From: Patiria pectinifera
Taxonomy: Eukaryota; Echinodermata; Asteroidea; Valvatida; Asterinidae
Direction of reading: 5' to 3'
Assembly (NCBI GenBank): GCA_029964075.1
Contig: CM057135.1
Coordinates: 17,820,863 to 17,884,862 of the forward strand
DNA: 64,000 bases
The translations under genes were made by a program, and so were the position numbers. The notes under the pieces were generated by a model. It was not told the DNA's origin and made no database searches. It worked only from the letters and a program-made list of their open reading frames with translations. Of the stretch, positions 19,123 to 60,552 are shown in pieces. The number at the start of each line of letters is the position of its first letter. Positions within the stretch are counted from its first letter, which is position 1.

Positions 19123-19244
19123 TAGACCCAATAATTGGGGCATTTTCACTCCTTTTTTCGAATTTTGGATTTGGTGGGTCTAGAACGACCGACCAAATCT
19201 AAAATTCGAAAAAAGGAGTGAAAATGGCCCAATTATTGGGTCTA
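19123..19244. repeat. 53-bp inverted repeat with 16-bp spacer
   Basis: Left arm 19123-19175 (starting TAGACCCAATAATTGGGGC) is the near-perfect reverse complement of 19192-19244 (ending GGCCCAATTATTGGGTCTA). The transcript would fold into a long hairpin. The arms end in TAG/CTA, so it may be a very short fold-back element. Confidence 0.85.
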
Positions 19245-19304
19245 GGAAAAATAGGCGTTGCCCGTGTGAACTCTTGCCAACATTTTTAAGTGTTTTCTAA
19301 GTAA

Positions 19305-19671
19305 GGCCAAAAAAAAAAAGTCTCCGGTTTCTGGTATGGAGCTTTCCCCAAAAGTGGTGCGGCGACGTGGCTTTTTTTTTAAAAACTTTTTTTCCCTTCA
19401 AATGTCCGCTGATGACTGCAAATGGTGCCCGACTAAATTTAGTGCACATATATGGGAGTCCAGAGAGGCCACATAAATCTTATTCTCGATCATAACCCCA
19501 TCTAAAAACACGTTAAAATTGTGCAGCAGCAGAATTCCAGTCAAACCAGTGAGTTTGGCGGTTTTGAAACATCATCTTGTATTGAAAAAAAACTTTTTCA
19601 TTTTGCCGACGCGCATGGCTACGGCGACGCGCGCGCATACCAGAAACCGGAGACTTTTTTTTTTTTTGGCC
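19305..19671. mobile_element. 367-bp MITE with ~35-bp TIRs, PIF/Harbinger-like
   Basis: Termini GGCC-A(11)-GTCTCCGG at the left and CCGGAGAC-T(13)-GGCC at the right are inverted repeats continuing to CTGGTATG/CATACCAG. The trinucleotide TAA directly flanks both ends, matching the 3-bp TWA target duplication of PIF/Harbinger elements. There is no coding capacity. The family assignment is inference. Confidence 0.65.
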
Positions 19672-20820
19672 TAAGCCTAAATCAGTAAATGTTTCAATTT
19701 TCTCACTGCTAAATTTGACTGTTTAGGACGTCATTGCTTATCATGGTTGATAGGTCACTATAGCCTAGAAAAAAATAAGCGTCTGTTTATGGAACTCTTT
19801 CCAAACTTTTCAGAGCAGTGTCATTGGGTTTGTGCACAGGGTGTCGAGTGTTGTCCGTGTATGGAACTCTCAAATGAGATTTGGAAATGTGAGTGAAAGG
19901 AGTGAAATAGATAGATAGATATAGATTAACTGATCATTCAGAAGAACATTGTTCACAGAAGTGCGTAATATGTGCGGCTGTATGCATGAAATTTGGTGAC
20001 AATTTGTAAATATTATGCACGTGGGAAAGAGTTCCATACACGGACAACACTTGACACCCTGTGTAGAAACCTTATGAAACTGCTCTGAAAAAGTCCAAGT
20101 GTTTTCTGAGTAAATGCTTTAATTTTTTCACTGCTAAATTCGACTTTTTAGGATATGTCATTGTTTTTCATGGCTTGTCGGTAACTATAGGGAAAAAGAA
20201 GTGTTGTTCGTGTATGGATCTTTTTCCTGCACATGTATGATACATTTGTGCGTGGCAATTATTTTGGAAAGATATTTCGCAGTTGTTTTTGTAAATACAT
20301 GTATTTTAATTGAGTTGTAATTTTGTACAGAAGTATATTAATCATTTTCAGATGTGATTAAAGGTTTATAATAAAGTGTCCTAATTGTGATTTAATTTAA
20401 ACAAAAAAAGGGTTCTGACAACATCATTGGCGTGAAATTTTGAAATAGGTTTTGTTTTGTCAGGGTCATAGTACATCTGATCCACGTGATCCACACCGAG
20501 GCAACGATGTTCAGTTTATGTATTTATTGAAAGTTTTGAAAAAACAATTTAATTTAGTGGAATATGAACAACACAGTTACTTTTTACATTGGACTATTTG
20601 TGCGAACGTTATTTGTAGTGACTCAATTATGTGGGTTGTGCCTATTTCAATCATTTGTTAGCATGTTAATGAAATTAAGTTGGTTGATTGATGACGTTAA
20701 TATAAAAAGAAGTCGCCTTCCCCCCTTCATAATGAGTTGTGCATAGAATTTTTTTTTAAATAGTGAGAAAAATCTAGTTACTTGACCCAGTGATACTTGC
20801 ACTAAAAAATAGCGCTACTG

Positions 20821-20959
20821 ATGAAATATTGTAATTTTGCGCGTGCATGCATACATGTGCCACTGCATGGTATAATTCCATTGATCTCCATGCAGATCAA
20901 TGGATGTTGCCAACTAGTGGAACTTACACGCATGTGCGCGCGAAATTAGAATATTTCAT
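20821..20959. repeat. 139-bp imperfect palindrome
   Basis: Arms of about 66 bp fold around CCATGC at 20888-20893. The inner arms TTGATCT/AGATCAA and outer arms ATGAAATATT/AATATTTCAT pair with scattered mismatches. A single-hairpin non-autonomous element or a cruciform-forming site are both possible. The short ORF across it (20847-21068) is probably incidental. Confidence 0.7.
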
Positions 20960-21462
20960 GGAAACGGCTGATTGTTTCAAGTTGTCTAGTAGTGTCAGAT
21001 TGCATGAGAGCATCAAGAATCTAGAGTTGCGTGGGGTATTGGAGTTGGCCCTGGAGGTTATGGCATGAACTTAATGTTCTGTGCTCTGCGTTTGCATGAA
21101 TAAGTTTTAGTGTTCAATCTGTGGAAGGGCTTGGATGCATTTTTCATTTTAATTACAGTTACGTTTGTTGTTAGGTGGAAAGTCACTTGAAGGATGTTTA
21201 TAGAGCAGATGAGGAGATTGCAAATACATATAAAGTGGATCCACTGTATATGTGTTTCCAATCTCTGTAACACTTTTAGAACGGTGTGCTTGGGACTTTA
21301 CAAAGAAAACAAAGACTTGGGACCTAACATTGTCCTTGTTATATTGCAGGATTTGTATTAACAGTGCCTTTCTTATCAGTGTTTGACTGTATATGTTGCT
21401 GCTGAAGTGAATTTCTAATTAAATTGGATAACGTATTTTTTTTCATTTGTATTTTGCAGAAA

Positions 21463-24024
21463 ATGGTGAAGACTGTGAAGAAAACTCCAGGCCAGGACCT
21501 CTCCAGATGTAGCATTCCTTCAACTTCCCCGAGGTTGGCACCTCCTTGGGGAAGACGCATGCCCATTGGGCATTGCGCAAACCAGGTGGCACACATACAG
21601 CGTGTGTTCGTACTCCGGGAACTTGGGGGCCAGTGTACTCCCAATTCTCCCGACAAGGGTAGTGGGACCAGTGTGTCCTTCACTTGGATAGCGGCTCAGA
21701 AAAGGTGTAACAGATTTTTGATCAATGGCTTGACTAGCGGTTTGAGTAGCTTTCAAAGAGAATGGTTGAGGTATGGCTTGACTATGGTAATGAAAAGAGA
21801 TTACCAGAAGCAAGAACTGAGAGAGGACTATGCAGAGAAGACCACTGTGGCTGAACTGAAGAAGAGGAGAATTGTAAGGAAGTTCAAAGCAGTGACAAAG
21901 CTAAAGGTAAACAACAAGACTTGCTGTAGCAGGAGTAAGGTATTGGAGTCTGTTGTAGAGTATTGTCAAGAGGAAAGGAAGGTCTCAAAACCAAACAGAA
22001 AGAAAATGAGAAGACAAGAGCGTAAACATGCATATCGTAGGTCAAAGATTGGGAGAGTGGAAATTCGCATCGGTCGAGCAGAACAAAGAGCCCATGAGAA
22101 AGTACTGAAGAGTATTCAATGTCACACCAGAAGAAGTTTGAGTTATGTCATCAATAAAATGCACACAACAAACAAATGCAAAGAAAAGGAGAATAGCCGA
22201 ACTGTGGGTTGCAAACAGGCTTCGTTCAAGAAACATAAATGTTCAAATGGAGTAACACAGAATGAAGCAAAAACCAAATTGCATAAGCCATGTAGGAATG
22301 TTGAGGAGACACAGGCTAAGAGTGCAAAACGGTGTTTGAAGGAAACACAAAAACGATGGTGTTGGTTATGTGATCAGTTAACTGGTCCAGATGACAGAGT
22401 TGTGGAGTGCAGTTGTCATATCTTCTATCATGTAAACTGTATGGGATTTTCTCATATGCACACTCTTTTGGCAAGTAAGTCAGTATCATGGTTGTGTCTC
22501 AAATGTGGAAGATGTACTTATACAGAGTCTTTATTGTATGACCTTGGAATTCCTACAGATTCAAACAGATATGAGATGCCAGTGTGTGAATGCAGCATGG
22601 AGAACCTTCATGTACATACTGATGGTGGCATTTCTAGTACACGTGATTGCATTCAAGATTCAAGAAGGAATAAAAATGAAGGTGAGCAGGTAACCAAACA
22701 TGCAGATGACATGGGTTGCCAATATACATGTGTAAATGCAAACCTTAAGCAGAGTATAGTGCAGCAAACTGGTGGAGGATATTCTTTGCGGAGCAAGAAA
22801 AACACAAATGTTCAGAACAGTTGTAACAATGGAAAGGAAAACAAAGATGAGAATCAGGCTAGAGTACGGAAGACAAGAAGTACATGTACTAAACAAGACA
22901 AAGACAACAATGATACAAGCAGAAATCAAACGACAACAAAAGCCAGTACTAGATGTAGACTGAGAAGACGGAGGGATCAAGTGCTAGAAAATGAAAAGGA
23001 CAGTGATGAAAAAGTTAATTCAAAAAGAAAAGGTGAAGATAATGGAGAAAAGGTTATTGAAGATAGTGATGGTAGGAAAAAGCTCAAAGTCACTTTACAA
23101 AGAGACATTTCACAGAGAATGGTTAAAGCTGATGATCAAAATAAAGTACTGACACCGTGTAATAAAAACACTACTTTCACTGACAATCAAAAGATTGACG
23201 AGGGGAAAGACAGCAGATTTATTCAAGGTAGTTTTCACCAAGGAGATTGCAGATTTGCAGAGTTGGCTGGTAGACAGTGTGTTTGTATGAGCCTTTGTGC
23301 AATCCTCTTTAGTCAAATTAAGCAGTTGAAAATGTGGTCTTCCAAAGACATGGATTTTGTGTTACAAACTGGGAATGAATTGTACAGTTACTTTTCTCAA
23401 AGCTCAACAATGAGGAATGAATATTTATTAGTGACAGAGTTGCCCGACGAAATTGATGCATTTGGAAAACATTTTCACACGAACATTTATGAATCTGTTT
23501 GTGGTACTTTTAATGAACAAACACATGTGTCTGAATTCAATATGATTGCATTGAGTAGTGCAGTAGAGCTGACAGTTCAGAAATATTTTGCTTGTTTTAT
23601 CTGTTTTCGTGGAAGCACATTTTCAGTAATTGCTCAAGGTGGCCTGTATTACATTTTTGATTCACATTCTAGAAATCAGCAAGGACAACAGGATAGTGAA
23701 GGAAGAAGTTTGCTCAAGTGTGTGTCATCATGGCAAGGTGTGTGCAGGTATTGTACTGAACTTGGAAAGTCTATGAATGTCAGTGATAATGAACAGTTTG
23801 AAATTACAGGTGTTACTGCCTGGGTAGATGACCATGCCAGTATATATAAGAGCGATGATACTCTAAGCAGTGCTCGTAGTGAACATGCTAGCAGTACATG
23901 TATTGCACAAATCAAGGAATGCACTCAACAGGATGTACAAATTATTGAGGCTAATCAAACAGTCACTTTTACATTTGTTCCATTGAGTTATGGCCAGAAG
24001 GTCGCATTGTGTGAGAAATTGTAG
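21463..24024 (+). CDS. Helentron N-terminal segment: PHD finger plus C76/UL36-type cysteine peptidase
   Basis: 853 codons counted from the ATG at 21463, three bases after a strong acceptor-like AG. Residues 100-280 are very rich in Lys and Arg. A C4HC3 PHD-type finger follows (ligands C300 and C303, a CSCH-F-YHVNC block, C345 and C348), normally a histone-tail reader. Residues 390-590 are basic and low in complexity. From about 590 the sequence matches the fold of herpesvirus tegument-type deubiquitinases (family C76) as I remember it: GRQC with candidate nucleophile C606, a WSSKDMD..LQTGNELY block, YLLVTELP, a SVIAQGG strand, and FDSHSRN with D733 and H735 as the D-x-H pair. I infer a ubiquitin-cleaving role. 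The frame ends at a single TAG, after which the same frame continues into the OTU segment. Confidence 0.75.
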   Translation: MVKTVKKTPGQDLSRCSIPSTSPRLAPPWGRRMPIGHCANQVAHIQRVFVLRELGGQCTPNSPDKGSGTSVSFTWIAAQKRCNRFLINGLTSGLSSFQREWLRYGLTMVMKRDYQKQELREDYAEKTTVAELKKRRIVRKFKAVTKLKVNNKTCCSRSKVLESVVEYCQEERKVSKPNRKKMRRQERKHAYRRSKIGRVEIRIGRAEQRAHEKVLKSIQCHTRRSLSYVINKMHTTNKCKEKENSRTVGCKQASFKKHKCSNGVTQNEAKTKLHKPCRNVEETQAKSAKRCLKETQKRWCWLCDQLTGPDDRVVECSCHIFYHVNCMGFSHMHTLLASKSVSWLCLKCGRCTYTESLLYDLGIPTDSNRYEMPVCECSMENLHVHTDGGISSTRDCIQDSRRNKNEGEQVTKHADDMGCQYTCVNANLKQSIVQQTGGGYSLRSKKNTNVQNSCNNGKENKDENQARVRKTRSTCTKQDKDNNDTSRNQTTTKASTRCRLRRRRDQVLENEKDSDEKVNSKRKGEDNGEKVIEDSDGRKKLKVTLQRDISQRMVKADDQNKVLTPCNKNTTFTDNQKIDEGKDSRFIQGSFHQGDCRFAELAGRQCVCMSLCAILFSQIKQLKMWSSKDMDFVLQTGNELYSYFSQSSTMRNEYLLVTELPDEIDAFGKHFHTNIYESVCGTFNEQTHVSEFNMIALSSAVELTVQKYFACFICFRGSTFSVIAQGGLYYIFDSHSRNQQGQQDSEGRSLLKCVSSWQGVCRYCTELGKSMNVSDNEQFEITGVTAWVDDHASIYKSDDTLSSARSEHASSTCIAQIKECTQQDVQIIEANQTVTFTFVPLSYGQKVALCEKL

Positions 24025-25470
24025 GTGACAAACATTTGTCTGGATGCTCAAGAGGTACTCGCGAAATGTCAAAACATGGGTAGGCCTGAGTCTATAAAGA
24101 AGATCAGAGGTGATGGTAACTGCTTTTATAGAGCCATATCTTATGCAGTATCAGGAACTGAAGATAATCACATGCAATTCAGATTGGCAATTGTGAATCA
24201 TCTGTTGGAGAATGCAGCTCACTTCAGGTGTTATTTACGCGAAGGATATAGGACAGTGTTACAGTATGTAACAAATGCAAGAATGCTCAATTGTGGTACA
24301 TGGGCTACTGAGGTAGAAATCATTGCAACAGCACACATGTTGGATGTTAATATTTACACGTATGATGATGCTAATAAGTGGTATTTATTTTCAAATAGAT
24401 ACACATCTACAGAGAGTAGTATTAACAGTTCTGTTAAGTCAGGAATTTATTTGTATCACAAACACCGCATACATTATGATGTAGTCACTAGCGTTTCCAG
24501 TATGTGTGAGTCCTTAGACATCAGTGAAGAGGAAAGTAAATCAAAAAGACAGAAGCCAAAAAGTTCAAAATGTAAAAGACGAAAGAGTCCAAATATGTAT
24601 TTAAAGCAAAAATTAAAAAGAGAAAAGGCTAGGGAATGCTATCAGAAAAAGCAAGATTTACTAAACAGTAACCCTGACATGCCTGATCAAGTTAAAGTCA
24701 AGAAAACTAAGCTTAATGTACGGAATAAAGAGAGATATAAGAGTGATTTTCATTACCAATGTCACAAAAAGTCAGGAACAAAAAAGAGTTTCAAAGAAAG
24801 CAGTGAAGACAGGGAAAGCAGAAAGTGTGCAAAGAAAGAAAAATATCATAGTAATGTAAAACACAGACAAGATTCTATTGAGTATGCCAAAAAGAAATAC
24901 ACAGAGAATGCATCAAAGATGAAAGAGTTCTGGAGGCAAAAATATGAAGGCAATATTAAATATAAAGAGCATAAAATTAGCAGTGTAAAAGCCAAGTACC
25001 ATGAAGATTCAGAATACAGGCAGAAAGTGATCAATTTTGGAAAAATCAAGTATCATAAGAATGCCGAATACAGGCAGAAAGTGATTAATTTGGGAAAAAG
25101 CAAGTATCATAAGAATGCCGAATACAGGCAGAAAGTGATTAATTTGGGAAAAAGCAAGTATCATAAGAATGCCGAATACAGGCAGAAAGTGATTAATTTG
25201 GGAAAAAGCAAGTATCATAAGAATGCCGAATACAGGCAGAAAGTGATTGACTCTGTAAAGAGAAAGTATAAGATAGTAGAGTACAGGCAGAAAATGATTG
25301 ATTACGCCAAAAAATATGGTAAGCGAAAATATCAAAATGATTTGTCATATAGGAATGCTATCATTAGAGGGATAAAGACAAAGTATGCAAATAATAGATG
25401 TTTTAGGATAAAATTGATAAATTCACAGAAAACAAAGTATCATACTAATGAGAATTTTCGTATATCATGA
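24025..25470 (+). CDS. Helentron OTU cysteine peptidase with 18-residue repeats
   Basis: Open in the same frame as the preceding segment, directly after its TAG; I see no independent initiation context, so it was probably once fused or is reached by readthrough. Codons 20-155 form an OTU domain: GDGNCFYRA with D30 and C33 (nucleophile), a W-ATEVEI block near 92, and IYLYHKHRIHYDVV with the catalytic-type H150. OTU peptidases remove ubiquitin, and several animal Helitrons are known to encode one. The remainder is Lys-, Arg- and Tyr-rich, probably nucleic-acid binding, and includes nearly identical 18-residue units. It ends at TGA (25468), after which the same frame stays open (IEKGKRKY), so the stop looks like a point mutation. 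Confidence 0.85.
   Translation: MTNICLDAQEVLAKCQNMGRPESIKKIRGDGNCFYRAISYAVSGTEDNHMQFRLAIVNHLLENAAHFRCYLREGYRTVLQYVTNARMLNCGTWATEVEIIATAHMLDVNIYTYDDANKWYLFSNRYTSTESSINSSVKSGIYLYHKHRIHYDVVTSVSSMCESLDISEEESKSKRQKPKSSKCKRRKSPNMYLKQKLKREKARECYQKKQDLLNSNPDMPDQVKVKKTKLNVRNKERYKSDFHYQCHKKSGTKKSFKESSEDRESRKCAKKEKYHSNVKHRQDSIEYAKKKYTENASKMKEFWRQKYEGNIKYKEHKISSVKAKYHEDSEYRQKVINFGKIKYHKNAEYRQKVINLGKSKYHKNAEYRQKVINLGKSKYHKNAEYRQKVINLGKSKYHKNAEYRQKVIDSVKRKYKIVEYRQKMIDYAKKYGKRKYQNDLSYRNAIIRGIKTKYANNRCFRIKLINSQKTKYHTNENFRIS
25009..25255 (+). repeat. 54-bp in-frame tandem repeat, four to five units
   Basis: The unit encodes KYHKNAEYRQKVINLGKS. Three copies are essentially identical in DNA and the outer ones are diverged, so expansion is recent. 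Looser versions of the same K-Y-x(4)-Y-R pattern continue to about 25560, showing the array grew from an older repeated region. No frame disruption results, because the unit is a multiple of three. Confidence 0.9.
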
Positions 25471-25521
25471 ATTGAAAAAGGAAAAAGAAAATACTGTAAT
25501 GATAAAAGTTATCGTAAACAA

Positions 25522-27329
25522 ATGAAGCAAAGGAACAATGAACGATTAAAACAGAAGAGAGCAAGTAAACGCAGTATGAACAATGTCATGAGAAATTGGA
25601 GGCAGGAAGTATCAGCAGGACCTGAGTATGTGTGTGCAGTTTGTCATAAACTCCTTTTTCGCAACCAAGTTGTTAAGTGTAAGTCCAACAAATACAAGAA
25701 TAAAAGTTGCATATCTGATAAGTATTTGCATCGATGTGAAGAGAATGCAGAGTGTAATAATCAGTGTTGTCTATCTGAATCAAGTAGATGTCTTTGGGTT
25801 TGTTGGACATGTCATAGAAAATTGCTCCAGAATAAGATGCCATCAGAAGCTTGTGCTAATAATTTGTCATTGGAATACATCCCTGAGGAATTGAGTTGTT
25901 TAAATACATTGGAAGAACACCTGATTGCAATGAATATAGCATTTATGAAGATGATAGCATTGCCAAGAGGAGGTCAGAATGCAGTGCATGGTCCAGTTGT
26001 ATGTGTACCATCAACTGTTTCAGAAACAGTAACATCATTGCCTAGATGTGGAAAAAATAATCAGCTGATCAGAGTCAAGTTGAAAAGAAAATTGTCATTC
26101 AAAGGGTATTACCAGTATCAGTATGTTACCAGGGAACATGTTGAACATGCACTTTGTTATTTGAAAGAGAATAACTTGTGGTATAAGAATATTGATATAA
26201 ACTGTGAGTGGCAAAATCCACTAGAAGATGGAAATGAAAACGAACAAGGACATGAATCTGACAATTCAAGGCACAGTGATGAAGACACAGATGATGAAGA
26301 TGCAGATGAACGTTTGACAGGTGTTGCTTTGGATACATGTATGCAGCCAGTAAATGTTGCTTCTGAGGTCCTCGATCAATATTTTGACGATGTGGTTTGC
26401 ATTGCGCCTTGTGAAAGAAACAATCCTGTTAGAGTGTTAATGGAGGAAGCGAATGAGGCAAAGTGTTTCCCAGCATTATTTCCAACAGGCAACCCTATTT
26501 TCGATGATAATCGTGATGTTAAATTAAGTCTGTTGAGATATTTCCATAACAGGTTAATGAATGCAGATAATAGATTTGCAAAGAGTACTCAGTACATCTT
26601 CTATGCTCAATACCTGTCAGAAATACAGCAAGTCATGTCAAAAGTGTCAATTGCAATGCGTCAGAGTTCAGGCAGTGTGCATGCACATAATGCTGAAAAT
26701 GTAAACGCCTCTATGATTAAAGACAGGGATCAACTGAGAGATATTTTGCAATCTGATAGTGGTTATAAGTTCCTGACACCAATTAGAGGAACACCCCCAT
26801 ACTGGCAAGCAACACAGAAAGATGTAATGGCTATGATCAGACAACTAGGAATTCCAACATGGTTTTGCTCATTTTCAGCTGCTGATATGAGATGGCCTGA
26901 AGTCATTAATACATTATTGAGGCAACAACGTGATTCAAGAAATATTGAGGACTTGGATTGGAATGAAAAATGTAAACTATTGCGAAGTAATCCAGTTACT
27001 GTAGCTAGGATGTTTGACAAGAGATTTCATTCATTCTTGAATGATGTTATTAAGTCAGAAGCCAAGCCTATTGGAAAAGTGAAAGATTATTTTTATAGAG
27101 TTGAGTTTCAACAAAGAGGGTCACCTCATACACATTGTTTATTTTGGATTGAAAATGCTCCAAGGTTGGGAGTTGATAACGATAGAGATGTTATTAAATT
27201 CATTGATTCATATGTAAGTTGCAAGTTGCCAAGTAAGCAAACGGATCCAGAACTCAATGATATAGTGACTCATGTTCAGGTACATAGCCAAAAGCATTCT
27301 AAATCTTGTAAAAAAAGGGCACTGAATGT
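25522..27329 (+). CDS. Helentron DUF6570-like region and Rep N-terminal half
   Basis: The first ATG of this stretch is at 25522, though the frame is open back to the TGA at 25468. A Cys-rich block (CAVCHKLLF, then CISDKYLHRC and WTCHRKLL) looks like a zinc-binding module. The next 110 residues (LNTLEEHLIAMNIAFMKMIA, LPRGGQNAVHGPVVCVP) match DUF6570, common in Helitrons. The Helitron_like_N part follows (SGYKFLTPIRGTPPYW, WFCSFSAADMRWPEV) and then EFQQRGSPHTHCLFW, with the HUH metal motif His-Thr-His at 27127-27135. HUH Rep proteins nick the element and join ends in rolling-circle transposition. Near 27330 one base appears to be missing and the true frame moves. Confidence 0.9.
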
Positions 27330-28319
27330 AGATTCAACTTTCCAAGACCTCCATCCAGTAGAACATTTATTACTGATCCAGATCAATGTGATGACTGTGA
27401 TGAGAATGATAATGAATATGTTGCTAGTGATGATGAACAAAATGCTCATGATGAGGAGGATAATATTGATCAAAGTAAAAGTCATCGTACTGAGGGAATG
27501 AATCATATTCATGCGCAAGAATTATTGAAGTCAGTGTGGAATGGCATACAGTGTGAGGACAACCAACAGTTGACTACTACAGAATTGTTTGACAAGCTTA
27601 ATATAACACAGGATGATTTTAAAAAAGCTAATAATGCTTTAAGCACCAAACCTACTATTGTCATAAAGAGAGAACCACAAGATGTTTGGGTCAATCTGTA
27701 CAATCCTGATTTGATAAGATGCTGGAATGCTAACATGGATATTCAGTATATCAGTGATGCTTACGCTTGTGCAGCCTATGTTGTGTCATATATGTCCAAG
27801 TCTGAACGTGAAATGGGACAGTTATTAGCAAAGACACAGAAAGAAGCAGAGAAGGGCAATCTTGACGCTCGACAAAGTATGAAAGAGCTTGGTTGTGTAT
27901 ATCTACATAATCGTGAAATCTCAGCCCAGGAAGCAGTATTCCGTGTTTGTAGTCTCAGATTGAAAGAGGGTTCTAGAAAAGTAGAGTTTGTACCTGTTGG
28001 TGAGAATCCTGTGAGAATGAGTTTACCCCTCAGTGTAATTCAGAGTAGATCTGAGGATGATGATCGTGACATATTCATGCCTAATAGAGTTGATCGTTAC
28101 AAAGTACGACCAGACCTTGATAAATTTGATGATATGTGTCTTGGTACATTTTGCTCAGAATACAGAATTATTTATACATGTAATGCAAACACAAACAAGA
28201 ACAGAAAACATTCAACGGTTTATGCACTGAAAGATGGGTTGGGTCACATACAGAAACGAAGTAGAACTCAGCCTGCAGTGATAAGATTCCCTCGCTTTTC
28301 AGAGAAAAAAATATCCTGA
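27330..28319 (+). CDS. Helentron Rep C-terminal half (shifted frame)
   Basis: This frame continues Rep: it opens with [14 protein letters not shown], the block that normally follows the Cys-Lys-Lys segment just before the shift, then an acidic linker and a conserved [17 protein letters not shown]. The catalytic tyrosine motif reads [11 protein letters not shown], two tyrosines three residues apart (27777 and 27789), the Y2 arrangement of Helitron Rep. It reaches a TGA at 28317, but that stop is caused by one extra A in the A7 run at 28305-28311. The previous frame resumes there with [17 protein letters not shown]. The two shifts compensate each other. Confidence 0.85.
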
Positions 28320-30831
28320 GAAATACTATCACAGTATATTGCAGCTATTTCTTCCATATCGTGTAGATTCTCACTTGAAACCACCTCAGTTTGAAACTTA
28401 TGAACAATTTTATAAAAATGGTTCTATAAGTTTAAATGGTGAATTGAAATCTGTAAGATGCCTTGTTGAAAGTAATCGGTCATTGTATGACTTAAATGCT
28501 GACTCTCTTGCAGCTGCAGAAGAGTATGTCAAGAAATTTGGTGTTCAGGAAGATGCTTGGGCTTTGATTTGTCCTAAATCTGAACAAGAAAGACTAGAGT
28601 GTGAAGCAGAGCGTGAACCAGTAATCGAAGAAGAGAATGGATTTCATATTCCCGATTTGCAGGGTAATAAAACAGAAGACAAAATATGCAATATTGAACC
28701 ACATTCAGCAAGAATTTCTAAACAAGAAGCACTCGGTTTATTGAGATCATTGAATATACAGCAGAGACAGGTTTTTAATAAGATTCGTCAATGGTGCTTA
28801 GAGAAGATCAATGGGAAGAATCCTGAACCATTCAATGTGTTTGTGACAGGTGGAGCTGGAACTGGGAAAAGCCACTTAATCAGGTCTGTTCATTATGAAG
28901 CAACAAGACTGTTTGCTAGAATTGTTCATAATCCTGACAATGTCTCAGTGTTGTTGATTGCACCTACAGGAGTTGCTGCATTTAATATTAATGGTAGTAC
29001 AATACACAGTGCCTTGTCAATCCCAGTCGATGCTAGATTACCTTATCAACCACTTGGTGAAGAGAAGCTAAATACTTTGAGGAAGACTTTGCAAGATCTT
29101 CAAATTTTGATTATTGATGAAATATCAATGGTTGACCACAAGATTTTGTGTTACATTCATGGACGTTTGCGTCAGATAAAACAAAGACGGGATCATAATC
29201 CCTTTGGAAATGTCAATGTGTTAGCTGTTGGTGATTTTTATCAGCTGCCTCCTGTTAGAGGAAAACCCCTATATCAAGAAGCAGTCCCTGTTGATCTGTG
29301 GAATGATAATTTCCAGAAAGTTGAGCTGAAAGAAATAATGAGACAAAAAGATGATGTTGAATTTGCAGACATTTTGAATAGGCTACGTATTAAAGCAAAG
29401 AAAAAGAATTTGTTGGATAAAGATGTGGCAACTTTAAGATCGCGGGAAACTGGAGAGGATTGGGACGATGCATTGCACATCTTTCCTCGTAACAAAGAGG
29501 TTGATGAATACAATACACAGACATTATTTGCAAAGTGTACTGATTGTACGTCTATTCTTGCGAAGGATTTGCAGAAAGATTCAAGTAAAACATCCAGAAA
29601 AGGAAATGTAAAAGTTCCAAAGAAATCCACACGCACAAGCTTGCCTGAATTATTGTGGTTAGGTGTTGGTGCTAGAGTGATGTTAACTAAGAACATTGAT
29701 GTATCAGATGGACTTGTCAATGGTGTAGTTGGCACTGTACGTGAAATAATTATGTTGCCTGATAAATCTTGGCCAAGGTGCATTGAAGTAGAGTTTGATA
29801 ATAAAGAAGTTGGATCCAAGTTGAAAAGAAAGTACAAATCATCACAGAACGAAGGCATAGTACCGATTCAAAGAGAAGAGGAAAATGTGACTAAGCAGTG
29901 TGTCAGACAACAGTTTCCCTTAAAACTGGCCTGGGCATGCACAGTGCACAAAGTGCAAGGAATGACAACAGATAGAGCAGTTGTTTCTCTGAAAAATACA
30001 TTTTCAGCTGGACAAGCATATGTTGCACTGAGCAGAGTTACATCCATGACTGGCTTAGTGATTGAAGGATTTGATGAAAAATATATTTATTGTAATGAAA
30101 CAGTGGCACAATCATTAAACAGTATGCCAGTGTTTATTGATGATAAAGTAAATTTTAGGAAGCAAAAAGCAAATGGAATTGTTATTATGATGCATAATAT
30201 AGAAGGATTAAAGGAACACTATATTGATTTAAACTGTAATAATGAAATGATTAAATCTGATTTTATTTGTCTTACTGAAACTTGGAATGATGACGAGATG
30301 TGCCCAGATGCAGAATTAACTGAATTTCAATGCTATCATCAGATCAGAAGTGTTTCATACGATAATTCAACTGAGTTGACAAGAATGTTAAAGCAACAAA
30401 GCCATGGAGGTGTTAGTGTATATGGAAGAAGGAACAGAGCTTTCAGCAGGTTAATGCTATCAGTGCAGAATATTGAGTACATTGCATTTCAGATCATAAG
30501 TGAGATGTCATGTTGTGTTGCTGTCATTTATCGTCCGGCATCATATGCCATGAAAGAATTTATTGCCAATCTGAAAATTTTGCTTGAAGAGCTTCACAGA
30601 GTATCAAGTAGATGCGTTGTCATGGGTGATTTCAATGAAGACGTTATGAAACATGGAACACAGATTCAGAAATTCATACAAGGTCATGGCTATGAACAGA
30701 TAGTTACTGACTCAACAACTGAATTGGGCACATTGATTGACCATGTATATGTTAGAAATATGGATTCAGTGAATGCTTCAGTAAAAGCAACTTATTACAG
30801 TTATCATGAAGCAGTTTGTGTTACATTGTAA
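28312..30831 (+). CDS. Helentron PIF1-like helicase with C-terminal EEP endonuclease
   Basis: About 840 residues. The first 130 form the Rep-helicase linker. The helicase is SF1B/PIF1 type: Walker [11 protein letters not shown] (28849-28878), [19 protein letters not shown], Walker [11 protein letters not shown] (near 29107), [13 protein letters not shown], and the late motifs [14 protein letters not shown] and YVALSRVT. It would unwind DNA during rolling-circle transposition. From about 30178 an EEP (APE-like) endonuclease begins: [34 protein letters not shown] (30618-30644), LIDHVYV and YYSYHEAV. The last motif keeps its His, but Tyr stands where Asp is usual. An endonuclease here marks the Helentron branch. 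The frame is intact to the TAA at 30829. Confidence 0.93.
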
Positions 30832-30860
30832 GTTTTCCTGCACATTATAATGAATACACT

Positions 30861-30866
30861 AATAAA
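30861..30866 (+). terminator. AATAAA polyadenylation signal
   Basis: Canonical hexamer 30 bases after the stop codon of the helicase-endonuclease frame. It would end the Helentron transcript. Confidence 0.6.
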
Positions 30867-31809
30867 ATATAGACATATACTGTACTTTTGCTGAGAAGGC
30901 CTAAAGCAAAATACATTAATGTATTAAAGAATGTTCTTCACCAATTTTCAAGAATGTCTCATGCAAAAAAAAAGGCAAAGGAAAAATAAATAAATATATT
31001 ACAGATTTCATACTACACATGAAAAAAACTATAGCAATAATACATGTATATGTTGCATGTATAGATCATGCATATTAAGCACATGTGTACATTAAAACAA
31101 TACTGTGATTCTATGACTTTGGAACATTAGTAGTCATCCCTATAATCGGTGACCACTGTGCATCATTTAATTTCCAGGTTGAAAGTTACTCTCTCACACT
31201 ACCCCTGGTTGCATTTGTAATTTGAAGATACTCTTGAAGCCCATTTTTAAAGCTTGAATCTAGATTGAAAGCTTGAATCTACATGTAGACTGAAATAACG
31301 TCTTAAATTTACAGCCTTGAGATGAAATTTAAAAGTAAATTCTAATTTGTTTTTAAACCAACTTGAAAATAAAGATTGAATGCTATTTGAACACCAACAT
31401 GTAGATTAGCTTATAATTTCCCATATACGTCAAGAATTCAAGCTTCATTATAATTTGTATGTATAGTCACCTCTTGTTCATACAAACTCAGCCGGACCTA
31501 CCCAAAATATTTGTTATATAAACAGTTTTTATTAAGAGGAACTTCAGTCCCATTCACTGTGTGCATATACATGTATGCACAGTCGGGAGCAAGATTTTAT
31601 GTGTATTTATGAGAGTCGACTGCACTGTGATGTTAAAATGCAATAATATGAAGAAGAATCCAAGTTACATGCACTTTCACTTTTATGACTTTTGTAGCTT
31701 TACAATGCAAGCACCTCATCTTCAAAGGAGCAGAGAAGACTGACAAATGGGGTAGCCTGGAGCCAAGCATCAGTGATGACAGCCTTCTGTACCACACTGC
31801 ATGAGCTCA
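30867..31809. other. AT-rich stretch after the Helentron frame
   Basis: No gene seen. Two near-identical AAAGCTTGAATCTA words lie side by side at about 31250-31280. The Helentron 3' terminus could lie here or in the tandem arrays that follow; I cannot identify a terminal hairpin with confidence. Confidence 0.35.
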
Positions 31810-32102
31810 TCAAGCAGCCTTAAACTTAACCTGCAGGATCTTACCTGAAACGTAAGCCTTCGTCAAGAGTGAACTGTCTCTGCTCAAGATGGTGGAAGAC
31901 CTGCTCCTTCCAGTGGACCAAACCTGCAGGATCTCACCTGAAACGTGAGCCTTCGTCAAGGGTGAACTGTCTCTGCTCAAGATGGAGGAAGACCTGCTCC
32001 TTCCAGTGGACCAAACCTGCAGGATCTCACCTGAAACGTGAGCCTTCGTCAAGGGTGAACTGTCTCTGCTCAAGATGGGGAAAAAACTGCTCCTTCTTCT
32101 AG
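31810..32102. repeat. 93-bp tandem repeat, first block (~3 copies)
   Basis: The unit contains CTGCAGGATCTCACCTGAAA, CGTGAGCCTTCGTCAAG and AGATGGAGGAAGACCTGCTC. Because 93 is a multiple of three and no frame on either strand has a stop inside the unit, long artefact ORFs appear on both strands. The minus-strand phrase GACGAAGGCTCACGTTTCAG resembles the 3' tails of some invertebrate retroelements. Confidence 0.9.
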
Positions 32103-33127
32103 TGGATAGCTGCTCCTGACATTATTGACGGGTACATGTACTCTTGTGGTCAACTCAAGATGGAGGAAGACCTGCATCCTGGACCAAAGCTGCAGGATCT
32201 CACCTGAAGCGTGAGCCTTTCAAGACCTCCATCAGCTTGATCAAGCTTGCTGATGACGTCGCTTGAATAAATGGACAATCCTGTGAGGAAGACCTACTCC
32301 TTCCAGTGGACCAAACCTGCAGGATCTCACCTGAAACGTGAGCCTTCGTCAAGGGTGAACTGTCTCTGCTCAAGATGGAGGAAGACCTGCTCCTTCCAGT
32401 GGACCAAACCTGCAGGATCTCACCTGAAACGTGAGCCTTCGTCAAGAGTGAACTGTCTCTGCTCAAGATGGAGGAAGACCTGCTCCTTCCAGTGGACCAA
32501 ACCTGCAGGATCTCACCTGAAACGTGAGCCTTCGTCAAGAGTGAACTGTCTCTGCTCAAGATGGAGGAAGACCTGCTCCTTCCAGTGGACCAAACCTGCA
32601 GGATCTCACCTGAAACGTGAGCCTTCGTCAAGAGTGAACTGTCTCTGCTCAAGATGGAGGAAGACCTGCTCCTTCCAGTGGACCAAACCTGCAGGATCTC
32701 ACCTGAAACGTGAGCCTTCGTCAAGAGTGAACTGTCTCTGCTCAAGATGGAGGAAGACCTGCTCCTTCCAGTGGACCAAACCTGCAGGATCTCACCTGAA
32801 ACGTGAGCCTTCGTCAAGGGTGAACTGTCTCTGCTCAAGATGGAGGAAGACCTGCTCCTTCCAGTGGACCAAACCTGCAGGATCTCACCTGAAACGTGAG
32901 CCTTCGTCAAGGGTGAACTGTCTCTGCTCAAGATGGGGAAAAAACTGCTCCTTCTTCTAGTGGATAGCTGCTCCTGACATTATTGACGGGTACATGTACT
33001 CTTGTGGTCAACTCAAACAATAGAACGCATCCTGCAAAGCTGCACACTCTCTAAGCACGCCTTTTAGACCTCCATCAGCTTGATCAAGCTTGCTGATGAC
33101 GTCGCTTGAATAAATGGACAATCCTGT
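32076..33127 (+). repeat. Duplicated tail of the 93-bp arrays
   Basis: Both array blocks end in the same unrelated sequence: 32076-32160 matches 32933-33017 (GGGGAAAAAACTGCTCC through TGTGGTCAACTCAA). Likewise 32221-32285 matches 33063-33127 (AGACCTCCATCAGCTTGATC through GGACAATCCTGTG). The whole array-plus-tail module was therefore duplicated, with later unequal expansion of the second block. Confidence 0.85.
32286..32945. repeat. 93-bp tandem repeat, second block (~7 copies)
   Basis: Same unit as 31810-32102, here about seven nearly identical head-to-tail copies. A two-variant position (CAAGAGTG versus CAAGGGTG) distinguishes inner from outer copies: the first and last units carry GGG and the middle ones AGA. 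The open frames across it are repeat artefacts, not a gene. Confidence 0.95.
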
Positions 33128-33951
33128 GTGAGCACAGCTATGGCAGTGCAGTCAGCAAGACATCCCTTCATGGTTTCATAGACAGTCATGTCCTGCCTAT
33201 TATAATAATTACTGCCGATCATCCTCTCACCACAGAACAGGGAAGAAACACTATTCAGGTAAGTAGAAATAATTAGTGCTATTTTTTGTGTGTGGTTGTG
33301 TTTTTTTTTTGGGGGGGGTGTTATGACATTTTATCATAAGTCAACGACAAGCAAATTGCTTTTGGCAGATGTTGAACTGCATATGCATTTTACATATAAA
33401 ATTTGTTTTAAAAACATTGCGGGCGGGGGATAGTTGGCTCTGAAGTTGCACATCTGGTACAATGATTTTCCTAAGGCAACTTGTAAGGAAGTAAACTTGG
33501 TGATTATAACAGTGAATCAAACATCAAAACTTTCAGTCAAATCTAGACATTGTCAACATCTTGCTCTTGTTTTTTTGTTCCTATTACACACAGCCATGCT
33601 GTACATTCTACATTAAGCAACAGACATAGTGAGACAGTATCCTGGATAGATCCACACATTCATGACATTCCATAAGCTTGTAATTTTCCCAACTTGTTTT
33701 GCACATCTCCTTTTACAGATTTGTTCTAGATTCTATTTTGCAAGACAGGGGGGTTGAAATGTTTTCCTATTGACTCACGTTGCATGTACATGTACATGAT
33801 ACGCTTGAAGGTGTACAATGTAGATGATTGACCATTACAATAAAATCTTTTGTTGGATTGAATTAAAACTTCACTCATAATGGATGTTTCTACATGTATA
33901 TGCATGCCAAGTTTGAAAATGATCTGGCTTAGGGCAGCCAAGAATCCATTG

Positions 33952-48597: not shown

Positions 48598-48794
48598 TTA
48601 ATCATTTCCAAGTTGGATGTTGAGACCATGTGGTTGAATAGTTCGAAGACGATTCATCCACACTTTCTCTCTGCTGAGGCGAACTGAGTCCTTGCGATGG
48701 CCAAGAGATTCAATGCCCTGCAAAATCATATCAGAAATGGAGTGGTTAGGCAGGTTGAAGTGATGATCAACAGGGGTGTCTAGTTTCTTGGTGT
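48598..48794 (-). pseudogene. PLE C-terminal tail
   Basis: In the next frame the protein continues: TPVDHHFNLPNHSISDM, then GIESLGHRKDSVRLSREKVW and MNRLRTIQPHGLNIQLGND, ending at TAA (48598-48600). The pattern His-Phe-Asn, a charged W-x-x-x-L-x-T, and P-x-G-L-N is the usual end of GIY-YIG Penelope ORFs. This was too short to show up as a free-standing ORF. Confidence 0.85.
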
Positions 48795-49256
48795 TGACCG
48801 GTGGGCATAGAAACGCTTCTTGAGCGTATTTTTAGTCTCACCTACATACTGCACTCCACAGACCCTGCAAGAAATGAGATATATGACATTAGAAGTGTTA
48901 CAAGTGATGTTATCAATGGTTCTGTGGGTAGTGACAGAAGTGTGGCCAGAAAAGGAATCAGACTCCTGGATATGAATCTGGCAGACAACACATCTGGAAC
49001 TGCACTTGAAAGTACCATGCTGGGTGGGAGGGGATGCATCTAAGGATGGGACTTCAGCTCGAACAATCAAGTCCCGTAGATTTCGAGGACGCCTGTAAGC
49101 CAATGTGGGGCCGTTGGGGATGGCGCGGGCAAGGCGATCTGAAGTATGGAGGATATGATGATTGTCATTAGTGATTTTGCGAAGGGGAGGGAGATTGGGG
49201 TGAAACGTGGTAACCAAGGGAATCATGGGTTTGGCCATGGCATCAGGGGCCTTTCC
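48785..49256 (-). pseudogene. PLE GIY-YIG endonuclease domain
   Basis: After the insertion the frame reads GKAPDAMAKPMIPLVTTFHP, then LRKI, PTLAYRRPRNLRDLIVRAEV and a Cys-rich block (CSSRCVVCQIH). The GIY-YIG domain follows: NVIYLISCRVCGVQYVGET, then LKKRFYAHRS, with the paired aromatic-glycine motifs and the catalytic Arg. It nicks target DNA for insertion. The frame runs into a stop at 48780 because of a shift near 48795. Confidence 0.9.
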
Positions 49257-49260
49257 CGTG

Positions 49261-49595
49261 CAGTGGCGTCGCCAAGGGGTGCCCCCCCCCCGTGAAAACC
49301 TAGTGTCCCCCGAGTGCCCCCCCATCTGAGATTTGGGTTGGTAAAAAAATTCTGCGCGTTGTTAAAATCATTACCTAAAAAATAGCAATTTCTGGAGATA
49401 TCTTCAGATCGAATTTAGCATCAAATGTGGGACCATTTTGCATCTAGCCCATCCTCCGTATGCGACAATTTTCCAAAGGGAGACCCCTCCCCCAGGACGG
49501 CGATCCGTATCCACCTAAGTGCCCCCCATCAAATGCTGGTGCCCCCCCCCCGTGCCCCCCCCCTCCCCAGACTGAAAAGTCTGGTGATGCCACTG
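49261..49595. mobile_element. 335-bp inverted-repeat element inside the PLE, 4-bp duplication CGTG
   Basis: Ends CAGTGGCGTCGCCA and TGGTGATGCCACTG are 14-bp inverted repeats with two mismatches. CGTG flanks both sides (49257-49260 and 49596-49599). The host ORF is continuous across the reconstructed empty site, which fixes the boundaries. The interior is C- and G-rich with no coding capacity. A 4-bp duplication would fit groups such as Chapaev, Academ or Ginger, but I cannot assign the family. Confidence 0.88.
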
Positions 49596-50000
49596 CGTGA
49601 GAGCTAGATTTCTGGGGATAGCTTTAGCTTTGGCAATGGCACGATGAACTTGGCGAGAGCTGTGACCCCTGGCCACCAAGTTGTTCCTCAGTATCTGTGT
49701 ATGGCGGGAGAAATCGGAATCATCAGAACAAATTCTTCTGAGTCTGAGTGCCTGGCTAAACGCTATGCCAGTTTTGCAGTGCCTGGGGTGACAGCTGGAG
49801 AAGTGGAGGTACTGGTGGGTGTCTCTGGGTTTGGAATACAGGTCAGTGGTTAGTGAGTTGCCTTGCTTGCAGACGGTGACATCCAGAAAGTGGGTTTGGT
49901 GAGCCGAGAACTCCGATGTGAATTTGATGGTTCTGTGGAAGGGATTGATGTGGTTAGTGAAGGTCAAGAGAATGTCCTCATCACTGGTCCAGATGAAAAA
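49596..50000 (-). pseudogene. PLE RT thumb and linker segment
   Basis: Continues in the frame reached after the T8 run: FIWTSDEDILLTFTNHINPF, TEFSAHQ-like HFLDVTVCK, YSKPRDTHQYLHFSSCHP and LRLRRICSDDSDFSRHTQIL. These blocks match the RT-to-endonuclease region of Penelope-like elements. The stretch ends where the inverted-repeat element is inserted; excising that element and one CGTG copy would make the frame continuous with the next segment (LALT to GKAPDAM). Confidence 0.85.
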
Positions 50001-50703
50001 AAACATCATCAATATATCTCTCCCAGTTCCAAGGGCGACATGGGGCCGAGGCAAGAATGCGTTCTTCGAGGTCACCTATGAAGAGGAAAGCCATGGAGGG
50101 AGCCATGCGAGTGCCCATTGCAGTGCCGTGTACCTGTAGATAGTGTTCACCAAGGAAAGAAAAATTGTTCTTCGTTAGAATAAGTCTCATGAGGGTGCCA
50201 ACATCACTGATGGGAGGAGTCGTGTGTCCTGCCTTGGCCAGAGCCAAGGAGCAAGCACGAACACCCTCCTCATGTGGGGTGTTGGTGTACAGAGATGAGA
50301 CGTCGAAAGCCCCAATGATGGCTGTGCTGGGAATCTGGTCCTTGATTCCTTCAAGCTTGCGTAGGAATTCTGGGGTGTCGTGAATGTATGACGAAATCTG
50401 TGGGACAAGGGGTTTGAGAAAACTGTCAATGAACAGGGAGATGCGTTCCGTGGTTGAGCCATTACCGGTGATGATGGGTCTACCGGGGTTGCCAGCCTTG
50501 TGAATCTTGGGTAGAAGGTAAAATCTGGCAGTCCTACAATCACAGGGAGAAAGAAATTTGTGAGTTTTCTTGGACAAATGGTCACGTGATCGCATATCGT
50601 CAAGTACCTGTTGTATATCTCGACAGAAAGTGCCTGTGGGGTCAGAGTCAAGGCGGGTATAGTTAGTGCGATTATCCAACTGGCAGTGGGCCGCATCAAT
50701 GTA
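50000..50703 (-). pseudogene. PLE reverse transcriptase, palm and fingers
   Basis: Same frame as the N-terminal segment. Motifs in order: FYLLPKIHKAGNPGRPI, GAFDVSSLYTNTPHEEGVRA (motif A with its Asp), VHGTAMGTRMAPSMAFLFIG (motif B), and WERYIDDVFF (motif C with the catalytic Asp pair). The YIDD form and the TAMGTRMAP block are typical of Penelope-like RTs rather than LTR or LINE RTs. Directly after motif C a run of eight T (seven expected) shifts the frame. Confidence 0.92.
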
Positions 50704-55204: not shown

Positions 55205-56899
55205 ATGGAGCATCAGGATGGGATCCTGGAAGGGAGTGGAGACTCCGGAATCAAAGCGAGTAGTGGCTACTCGGGGACACCAGCGAGTATGGGATACTCT
55301 CAGACACCAGCAAGGGTGGTGAGCAGGACAAGCATAACACTGCAGCCTGTAGTGACACCATCACCTCCGAGGTTGACGCCGATGGTATCAACCACAACGT
55401 TTCCGCCGGGGCAAAGCTCTGTGAAAGGAGCAGGTGGAGTAATGTTGGTGGCAACTGATGGGCAGACAAAGGATGTCCAGTTGGACAAGAGGTCACAGGA
55501 ACTTCTCCCACAGGTCGCAGGAGGGGCATCATCAGTAATCTACCCATCATTATCGTCTCCTTGGCCGGGGTATATGTCGACACCAGTGGATCCGGGACCA
55601 AGGCGGGTGGAGGCGCCTGCTTATCAAGGTTTTGTGGGTCGATCCCAAACCGAATCCGAGCCGAGCAGTGCATCCTGGCAGAGACAAGCTGGCCCATTGC
55701 TACAAGATGGTTTTGCAGGTTCAGCTTACAGTATGACTACAACTCCGAGCGGCAATCCGTTTTTGACGGATGAGGTGAGATGTAATTTGCAGCACCAGTT
55801 TCATGGAACGCCACAACAGCCTTCGGTTACCGCACCGACAAGGACGCCAGCGGGAATCATGAGCACGGGGTTGCAGCAGCAAAGTCAGCCAGCGATTTGG
55901 CAAGGAGCAGCAGGGCTCTCATGGAACCCTCCTGACAAGGTCCCAACGGTGTCGCAGGGGGTGGAGCTACCCAAATCAGCCGTGGGTGCCAAGGTGGAAG
56001 GCAGAGTCCACCGCAAACCAAGCATGGTTCCTGACCGATTCGCAGGGGCTATCCCATGGAGAGACTACAAGGCCCATTTTGAGTCTTGCGCGGTCATCAA
56101 TGGCTGGTCGGCTGAAGAAAAGGCATATTTCCTAGCAGCTAGTCTGAAGAGTCAAGCTCAACAGGTGTTGGGAGACAGGGTCTCCGGTGATGTGTTGAGC
56201 TATTCGGAACTCACAGAGAGACTGGAGAGGAGATACGGGCCTGGTGAGCAAGCCGAAACGTTTTTAGCGGAGCTGCGAAGCAGAACAAGAAAAACAGGGG
56301 AAGGTTTGCAGGAGCTTGGGCAGGGCATACGTCGACTGACAGAGCTGGCGTATCCAGAGCTCCCGAGGGACAGCAGAGAGCGCCTGGCACGAGGGCACTT
56401 AGTGGATGCCATACCGAATGCAGAAATTCGAGCTGGAATATTTAGGGCTCACCCCAAGACACTGGACGAGGCTGTTAGAGCAGCATTGGAAACGGAGTCA
56501 TTTCTAAATGCGGAGAGACAGCGGCAACAAGTCCAGGGTGGACGGTTAGATAGAAATCCCAGAACAACAAGACAAGTGGAAATCGTCTCGAGAGAGGAGT
56601 TTGAACAGCAAACAAGGGCAATGTCGGAACAGTTACAGACATTGCATCAGTTGATGTCGAGATTGACTGAAGCGATGAAGCAAGAGGCTCCTCAACGTGT
56701 CAAGTGGGAGGGGGAGCCACGACGGAGGCTAAGCTGTTTCAATTGTGGAGAAATTGGGCACTTTAAACGGGACTGCCCTAAGCTCAACACTAACCCACAG
56801 TCGGGAAACGATGCAGGACCAACCCAGCGGGTCATGGGGAGGTCACTAGCAGAACCAGACCCAAACAAGGTGGTGGTCGTGGAGGCAAAGAAAAATTAG
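55205..56899 (+). CDS. gag: Gag polyprotein
   Basis: 564 codons from the first ATG after the primer site (leader about 55 nt from the LTR). Residues 1-265 are rich in Ser, Pro, Gly and Gln. Residues 268-438 are a retrotransposon-gag capsid-like domain (WRDYKAHFESCAVINGW, YFLAASL, RLERRYGPGEQAETFLAEL). One CCHC zinc knuckle follows, CFNCGEIGHFKRDC, with ligands C511, C514, H519 and C524, for RNA packaging. The TAG at 56897 lies inside the open pol frame: pol is open from 56794 and is -1 relative to gag, with about 100 bp of overlap. The frame is intact. Confidence 0.95.
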   Translation: MEHQDGILEGSGDSGIKASSGYSGTPASMGYSQTPARVVSRTSITLQPVVTPSPPRLTPMVSTTTFPPGQSSVKGAGGVMLVATDGQTKDVQLDKRSQELLPQVAGGASSVIYPSLSSPWPGYMSTPVDPGPRRVEAPAYQGFVGRSQTESEPSSASWQRQAGPLLQDGFAGSAYSMTTTPSGNPFLTDEVRCNLQHQFHGTPQQPSVTAPTRTPAGIMSTGLQQQSQPAIWQGAAGLSWNPPDKVPTVSQGVELPKSAVGAKVEGRVHRKPSMVPDRFAGAIPWRDYKAHFESCAVINGWSAEEKAYFLAASLKSQAQQVLGDRVSGDVLSYSELTERLERRYGPGEQAETFLAELRSRTRKTGEGLQELGQGIRRLTELAYPELPRDSRERLARGHLVDAIPNAEIRAGIFRAHPKTLDEAVRAALETESFLNAERQRQQVQGGRLDRNPRTTRQVEIVSREEFEQQTRAMSEQLQTLHQLMSRLTEAMKQEAPQRVKWEGEPRRRLSCFNCGEIGHFKRDCPKLNTNPQSGNDAGPTQRVMGRSLAEPDPNKVVVVEAKKN

Positions 56900-59800: not shown

Positions 59801-60552
59801 CCCTGCCGGACCAGAAAGCTACAACTGTGGCGGAAACCCTGGTGGAGCAATTCATATGCCGGTATGGTTGCCCGAAGGAAATCCACAGCGACCAGGGGAC
59901 AAACTTCCAGTCAGCTGTATTCAGAGAGGTCTGCAGACTGCTAGGAATGGATCAAACAAGAACCTGCCCTTACAATCCCAAGTCAGACGGCTTCATCGAA
60001 AGATTCAATCGGAGCCTCGTCAATCTGGTTGCCCCATTCGTAAGACAAGACCAGCGAGACTGGGATGCCAACCTGGCGTATTCAATGATGGCATATAGGA
60101 GTGCTGTTCAAGAAAGTACGGGGGAATCACCATGCTTCATGCTCATGGGACGTGATATATCCTTACCTCTTGACGCACTGACCAAGCTTCCCGACGATTG
60201 TGATGACCATTTGTCAACAGATTATGCACAGAATCTTCGGCAGAGGATGACCCAAGCCCATGACCGAGCGCGAGAGAGCATGAAAACTAACCTACGACAG
60301 CAAAAGCGCAACTACGATCGCCATGTGGCCGGCCATAAAATAAATGTTGGGGAATTTGTGTGGCTGCATAACACATCACGCAAGAAGGGGTTGTCTCCAA
60401 AGCTTCAATTTAAGTGGCTGGGACCATACCTGGTGATAAAACAACTATCTGACGTGACTTTCAGAGTACAGGAGAAGCCGAGGTCGAAGCCAAAGGTCGT
60501 GCACTACGACAAGCTAAAGGCTTACATGGGTCCACCGCAGCAAGCATGGTAA
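56794..60552 (+). CDS. pol: Pol polyprotein (PR-RT-RNaseH-IN)
   Basis: Open from 56794 to a TAA at 60550; no ATG is needed if it is reached by -1 frameshifting from gag. Counting from 56971, the aspartic protease site is FLIDTGSSETLI (D17). RT spans about 290-470, with FCVDYRSLN (350), LDLASGYWQ, MPFGLCNAP and YLDD at 450-453. RNase H begins near FILDTDASS (D599). The integrase HHCC zinc region is near 845-880 (H-x3-4-H, CTTCARR). The DDE residues are D914, D974 and E1010, with the usual 35-residue spacing. A GPY/F module (KWLGPYLVI) lies at 1149-1157. All catalytic residues I can check are present. No stop or shift occurs over 1250 codons. Confidence 0.97.
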   Translation, partial: PTVGKRCRTNPAGHGEVTSRTRPKQGGGRGGKEKLGIDEDGSDGETVQSHPKEIGALHGVYVEGQIGQHSLPFLIDTGSSETLISITEYNSMIRGVRPSLVPISDVIRQADGKPLTAKGSALMGVQIGGYRAEVEVIVAPIRNRGILGMNFLLTTACTLDLKELQLRIAEHTVPLCDGKRTSSFCYKVRAEKTSRIPPGHEAIITGVLEQPMELQGMGMIEPTDRNVLSERGLLVARVLVDAGVDSYPIRVFNPGASVATVSGGCTVGTLTAINEEDVESPGVSVTIMERADKGSREVPEHLVELYQQSVSQLSDDADRERVKKLLIDYQDIFSKGLGDLGKTDIVHHSIRVDETTPIRQRARRLPIWQRAEADEQVREMVQKGIIEPSSSAWASPVVLVKKKDGSTRFCVDYRSLNAHTLKDAYPIPRVDDSLDSLAGSQWFSTLDLASGYWQVQLDHDAKAKAAFVTRSGLYQWNVMPFGLCNAPATFERLMERIFAGLQWRTLLLYLDDIIVFAESVDDEVDRLREVFQRLREANLKLKPKKCSLFQQSVTYLGHIISRNGVSTDPGKVRAVEEWSVPQSTRDVRSFIGLASYYRRYIKGFAKIAQPLHRLMEKNRVFQWTEDCDEAFQTLKRSLTTAPILAYPKEVGEFILDTDASSTGIGAVLSQRQDGEEKVIAYASRTMSKPERNYCVTRRELLAVVTYVKHFRHYLYGRRFVIRTDHGALRWLINFRNPEGQLARWMEILSEYDLVIQHRAGRVHQNADALSRKPCTQCGRTGAESDELQAEETPGEKESEEHFDRDTRMVTITPKWTLQQLREKQLEDSTIRPILRAKEDGDNRPKWEVISTDSAPSKTYWAQWEQLKVREGVLCRRHESDDGRRCKWQVILPTDLREDILAELHDSKTARHQGVRKTLIKVQKRYYWSGMSADVRSKIRKCTTCARRKSPGKKSRAPLQQYTVGATMERIALDIMGPLPRSERGNAYVLVVGDPFTKWIEAYALPDQKATTVAETLVEQFICRYGCPKEIHSDQGTNFQSAVFREVCRLLGMDQTRTCPYNPKSDGFIERFNRSLVNLVAPFVRQDQRDWDANLAYSMMAYRSAVQESTGESPCFMLMGRDISLPLDALTKLPDDCDDHLSTDYAQNLRQRMTQAHDRARESMKTNLRQQKRNYDRHVAGHKINVGEFVWLHNTSRKKGLSPKLQFKWLGPYLVIKQLSDVTFRVQEKPRSKPKVVHYDKLKAYMGPPQQAW

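Follow-up and report, generated by a model that had tools for sequence, protein, structure and literature searches.

A probably decayed Helentron copy with VTD and OTU peptidases and a likely PHD finger in Patiria pectinifera

The closest described relatives of the locus presented here are Helitrons that carry deubiquitinases alongside their transposition machinery. Erven et al. (2022; PMC9741609) named the peptidase class VTD, reported that its members outside viruses come mostly from Helentron-subclass Helitrons and, in the main text, gave the number of VTD Helitrons that also bear an OTU domain as 121. Three zebrafish VTDs cleaved ubiquitin substrates, with a preference for K48 and K63 chains, and the OTU domains of the transposons were left untested in that study. 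The same authors suggested that the enzymes might spare transposition proteins from proteasomal degradation, and that herpesviruses probably got their tegument deubiquitinase from such elements. One of the zebrafish Helitrons, DrT2, is, like our locus, a Helentron with one VTD, active and assayed as a deubiquitinase, and one OTU domain; compared by its description in the main text, it differs in that no PHD finger is mentioned there and in that the copy described here is broken (PMC9741609). The OTU Helentrons described earlier likewise join Rep, helicase and endonuclease with an OTU domain, some copies having tandem repeats, but a VTD is not described in the passages on them and their subterminal inverted repeats (subTIRs) rest on many copies, whereas here there is one tentative pair (PMC4067079). 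A further parallel is found in Ginger1-9_HM, whose transposase also joins a ubiquitin-like protease (Ulp1) to a PHD finger; in contrast to our locus this is a cut-and-paste DDE element and not a rolling-circle one, and Ulp1 and PHD alone are listed for it in the text (PMC2836005).

A preliminary description of the locus had held that its combination of domains was undescribed. The main part of that claim was wrong, because the 2022 paper already presented Helentrons with both VTD and OTU, counted them, assayed VTDs and solved a Helitron VTD by crystallography (PMC9741609). The VTD and OTU pairing is thus already in the literature, and the less familiar part of the element is the PHD finger. 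PHD is mentioned nowhere in the main text of Erven et al. (PMC9741609), and a paper on platyfish Helitrons has PHD as a domain only in the title of a reference, as far as its text goes (PMC4021074). In the open-licence literature, judged mainly by titles and the first part of abstracts, we found no Helitron or Helentron with a PHD finger. Outside Helitrons, PHD domains reportedly occur in CR1 retrotransposons, to go by the title of a 2003 work by Kapitonov and Jurka.

The analysed window is a stretch of 64 kb from the asteroid Patiria pectinifera. Open-reading-frame analysis of this window delimited, at 21463–30831 on the plus strand, five colinear open pieces. The first three belong to one common frame split by two in-frame stops, and two further changes of frame follow, seen as overlaps of open frames at 27312–27501 and 28285–28319. 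We place these changes, by inference, at the A runs 27310–27316 and 28305–28311; programmed frameshifting was considered as their cause. Pfam matches together with motifs gave the order of domains as PHD-like, Herpes_teg_N/VTD, OTU, DUF6570, Helitron Rep, PIF1 and EEP. What the sequence itself establishes is this order and, for each of the two peptidases, its catalytic residues. The features of the coding region are as follows.

22360–22506, plus strand: likely PHD finger with the Cys4-His-Cys3 order (Pfam on the excised piece, PDB match, shuffles)
23230–23682, plus strand: VTD, a C76-type cysteine peptidase domain, with C606, D733 and H735 (Pfam, phmmer, motifs)
24022–24024, plus strand: in-frame stop TAG separating the VTD segment from the OTU segment
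24106–24480, plus strand: OTU cysteine peptidase domain (Pfam, PDB match, motifs GDGNC...HYD)
24987–25248, plus strand: in-frame tandem repeat of 54 bp (18 residues) after the OTU domain, with basic units of the KYHKNAEYRQKVI type
25468–25470, plus strand: in-frame stop TGA in the frame common to pieces 1–3
25828–26208, plus strand: DUF6570 (Pfam E 1.3e-20, piece 3)
26542–27141, plus strand: Helitron_like_N / HUH Rep domain with RGSPHTH (Pfam E 2.3e-38, piece 3)
27777–27791, plus strand: two-tyrosine motif YVVSY in the next frame (motif, piece 4)
28750–29355, plus strand: core of a PIF1-type helicase (Pfam E 1.2e-29, piece 5)
30256–30771, plus strand: EEP (AP-type) endonuclease domain (Pfam Exo_endo_phos E 1.7e-7, piece 5)

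The transposition machinery leaves little doubt about the class of the element. An HUH Rep domain with its tyrosines, a PIF1-type helicase and a C-terminal EEP endonuclease are all present, three of the features by which Helentrons are recognised, the others being subTIRs, a short palindrome at the 3' end and insertion within TT with no target duplication. The tyrosines are those of the YVVSY motif, which we take to be the Rep tyrosine motif and which lies in a piece that had no convincing Pfam match. The preliminary description had assigned the locus to the Helentrons, correctly, and the OTU, DUF6570, Rep, PIF1 and EEP parts that it named were all matched in Pfam; its coordinates and motifs were also borne out when the sequence was re-checked. 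The reading frame of which it had spoken is colinear but not intact, given the TAG, the TGA and the two frame changes. Because of these two stops and two frame changes the copy is probably decayed and inactive, and since it is broken, any function would be that of the family and not of this locus. Directly ahead of DUF6570, a Cys-rich stretch (25632–25826, plus strand; CAVCHKLL ... CWTCHRKL) was overlapped solely by a weak D5_N match in Pfam (E 0.079), and it might perhaps be another zinc-binding module, to judge from its residues.

The first of the two peptidases was identified by the Pfam family Herpes_teg_N, which covers residues 590–740 of the first piece with an E-value of 7.7e-11 and 42.4 bits, against a cut-off of 25. 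A phmmer search of the PDB retrieved 8ADD at E 8.2e-7 and, at E 0.0028, a large tegument protein. The former is a zebrafish Helitron deubiquitinase, DrT1-VTD2, solved by crystallography and rendered inactive by mutating C322, D451 or H453, the Asp-x-His order being a hallmark of the VTD class (PMC9741609). In the phmmer alignment these three residues are paired with C606 (codon at 23278), D733 and H735 (the FDSH motif at 23659–23667) of the first piece. Two more residues of DrT1-VTD2, E377 and D376, have been proposed to hold the ubiquitin tail, and changing either of them lowered cleavage (PMC9741609). Counted by hand from the same alignment, E377 has its counterpart in E659, whereas a threonine (T658) stands in the place of D376. 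The domain is therefore aligned with DrT1-VTD2 at the catalytic Cys and Asp-x-His and at one of the two ubiquitin-tail residues; the elements themselves differ, DrT1 having two VTDs and no OTU domain (PMC9741609). The fold expected for the class is papain-like, and an AlphaFold2 model made from the single sequence was of low confidence (pLDDT 37.6). Taking the profile match and the alignment together, we regard the second, non-OTU peptidase as real and as a homologue of the VTD deubiquitinases; the earlier proposal of a C76 or tegument-type peptidase was right on this point.

The OTU domain (Pfam E 2e-12) follows beyond the TAG codon. Its catalytic motifs are found at residues 29–33 (GDGNC, with the Cys codon at 24121) and 150–152 (HYD, at 24472) of its piece, and in the PDB it matched OTU domain-containing protein 5 (3tmo, E 1.4e-8). 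The tandem repeat behind it consists of 4.8 copies with 95% matches, with more diverged units in the adjoining sequence; its basic 18-residue units possibly bind nucleic acid.

The PHD finger is the weakest part of the predicted architecture, and its identity is likely but weakly supported. No PHD appeared in a Pfam scan of the whole 853-residue first segment at E-values up to 1. When a piece of 89 residues was scanned alone, PHD had the best E-value of the eight families listed (9.5e-4), with a score of 19.6 bits that lies under the gathering cut-off of 24; Gemini_AL2 was a close second (E 0.0014), and weaker matches were found to PHD_NSD, zf-HC5HC2H_2, C1_2 and RING. Against the PDB, the best two of the 13 matches listed were to Pygopus (E 0.0075 and 0.0076), seven of the 13 carried that name, and the last was an unrelated toxin RNase; the Pygopus chains are PHD fingers. 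A single-sequence AlphaFold2 model of the piece (pLDDT 45.7) was uninformative. All eight ligands are present where the preliminary description had placed the PHD finger, and a Trp precedes the last Cys pair. This part of its claim stood, but besides the low Pfam score the usual PHD spacing is departed from: only one residue separates the second pair of cysteines, closer than usual, and for this reason the strict PHD pattern fails. With the pattern widened post hoc for this short second pair, the eight-ligand order never arose when the 853-residue segment was shuffled 20000 times, and it arose in three of 20000 local shuffles. The stretch could instead be another zinc module (RING-, C1- or HC5HC2H-like) or a chance cluster of Cys and His. 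The sub-threshold score, the nearness of Gemini_AL2 and of the weaker families and the short Cys pair speak for such a reading, and the leading place of PHD among the families, the Pygopus matches, the aromatic residue and the absence of the ligand order from the whole-segment shuffles speak against it. We judge this alternative unlikely, with an appreciable chance nonetheless, and retain the PHD finger as the likely identity.

The ends of the element are less well defined. The candidate structures on both sides of the coding region are the following.

20804–20822, plus strand: candidate 5' subterminal inverted repeat with a palindromic core, TAGCGCTA (inverted-repeat search)
20821–20959, no strand: inverted repeat with arms 20821–20864 and 20916–20959, 80% complementary, inside the candidate 5' subTIR
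31828–32954, no strand: array of 93-bp tandem repeats between the coding frame and the candidate 3' end
33269–33287, minus strand: candidate 3' subterminal inverted repeat, pairing with 20804–20822
33321–33339, plus strand: candidate 3'-terminal hairpin with a 6-bp stem and a 7-nt loop (shuffle comparison)

The two candidate subTIRs are AAAAAATAGCGCTACTGAT at 20804–20822 and its reverse complement with three mismatches at 33269–33287 (16 of 19 positions complementary). One subTIR-like pair was seen among the 25 listed of the 73 inverted-repeat pairs between 18500 and 33500. Taking the pattern as given, only two matches with at most three mismatches occur in the window, compared to a mean of 0.02 in shuffles. 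When the flanks (20400–21462 and 30832–33600) were shuffled, 55 of 200 shuffles contained a pair of at least 16/19, so that the pair alone is not significant; the real flanks hold nine alignments of nineteen bases that are as good as this, where the shuffles average 0.61. As to the hairpin, such a stem was present in 64 of 5000 mononucleotide shuffles of the 63 bases that follow the 3' repeat, and its folding energy did not surpass that of shuffled sequence (z -0.21). Published Helentrons and HINEs carry subTIRs as well as a 3' palindrome, and some also possess tandem repeats and an internal repeat on the 5' side (PMC4067079; PMC7492417), and in DINE-1-type elements an internal inverted repeat lies near a position like that of 20821–20959 (PMC4067079). 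The extent of the element is accordingly put, tentatively, at about 20.8 to 33.3 kb. Just outside it, at 19123–20227, there is a cluster of inverted repeats with a 58-nt hairpin (95%) and a perfect 30-nt pair separated by 297 nt; perhaps these are short elements of a non-autonomous kind.

A second copy of the element was sought by blastn (E 1e-3) in the rest of the 64-kb window and none was found, and the entire window was also scanned against Rfam, with no matches at gathering scores. Four pattern scans of viral contigs gave no relative: they yielded 7, 0, 2 and 0 stretches, and all nine were unconfirmed by tblastn. The remainder of the window contains other coding remnants. At 55205–60552 (plus strand), an ORF of 564 aa with a zinc knuckle is accompanied by one of 1193 aa with matches to aspartyl protease, reverse transcriptase, RNase H and integrase, presumably the coding region of a Gypsy-type LTR retrotransposon. 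At 48780–50679 (minus strand), a GIY-YIG ORF (E 8.4e-5) lies downstream of an ORF that matched reverse transcriptase weakly and below the cut-off (E 3.2e-4), an arrangement suggestive of a decayed Penelope-like element. An ORF with C2H2 zinc-finger matches is found at 61248–62006 (plus strand).

All in all, the locus is best explained, with high probability in our judgement, as a decayed autonomous Helentron of tentatively ca. 12.5 kb (roughly 20800–33345), whose Rep/PIF1/EEP transposition protein is preceded by a likely PHD finger, VTD, OTU, a basic repeat and DUF6570. A different reading would see in the PHD-VTD segment (21463–24021) a gene of the host or of another element, captured by or adjoining an ordinary OTU-Helentron, with the common frame as an accident. 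The TAG stop does part this segment from the OTU segment, Helentrons are known to capture genes (PMC4067079) and the 5' end of the element is not firmly placed, but the frame is identical on either side of the TAG and the joint presence of VTD and OTU in Helentron frames has been published (PMC9741609), so that we hold this reading to be very improbable. That the locus might be a domesticated host gene of Helentron origin, still expressed, hardly deserves credence, for although the domestication of VTD genes has been proposed for flies and nematodes (PMC9741609), the coding region is interrupted along its length by two stops and two changes of frame, and Rep, helicase and nuclease all remain recognisable.

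If the locus is a decayed Helentron, its intact relatives would transpose by rolling circle, with a transposition protein that carries its own means of ubiquitin removal and might in this way be stabilised or alter repair or silencing signals. The two deubiquitinases may keep the transposition protein, or else other factors, from being degraded by way of ubiquitin; alternatively, they may alter ubiquitin signalling at chromatin or at repair sites. The PHD finger, if real, could tether the complex to histone tails. Going further, an invertebrate subfamily of Helentrons might keep PHD and two unrelated deubiquitinases in one polyprotein, the histone reader directing ubiquitin removal to donor or target chromatin and so allowing escape from ubiquitin-based silencing, a speculative scenario to which we give a small chance. 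As it stands, the locus adds one more case to the Helentrons that combine two deubiquitinase folds, and it mainly confirms published work. Should the PHD finger turn out to be conserved in intact relatives, it would provide a concrete lead to where the deubiquitinases of these elements act.
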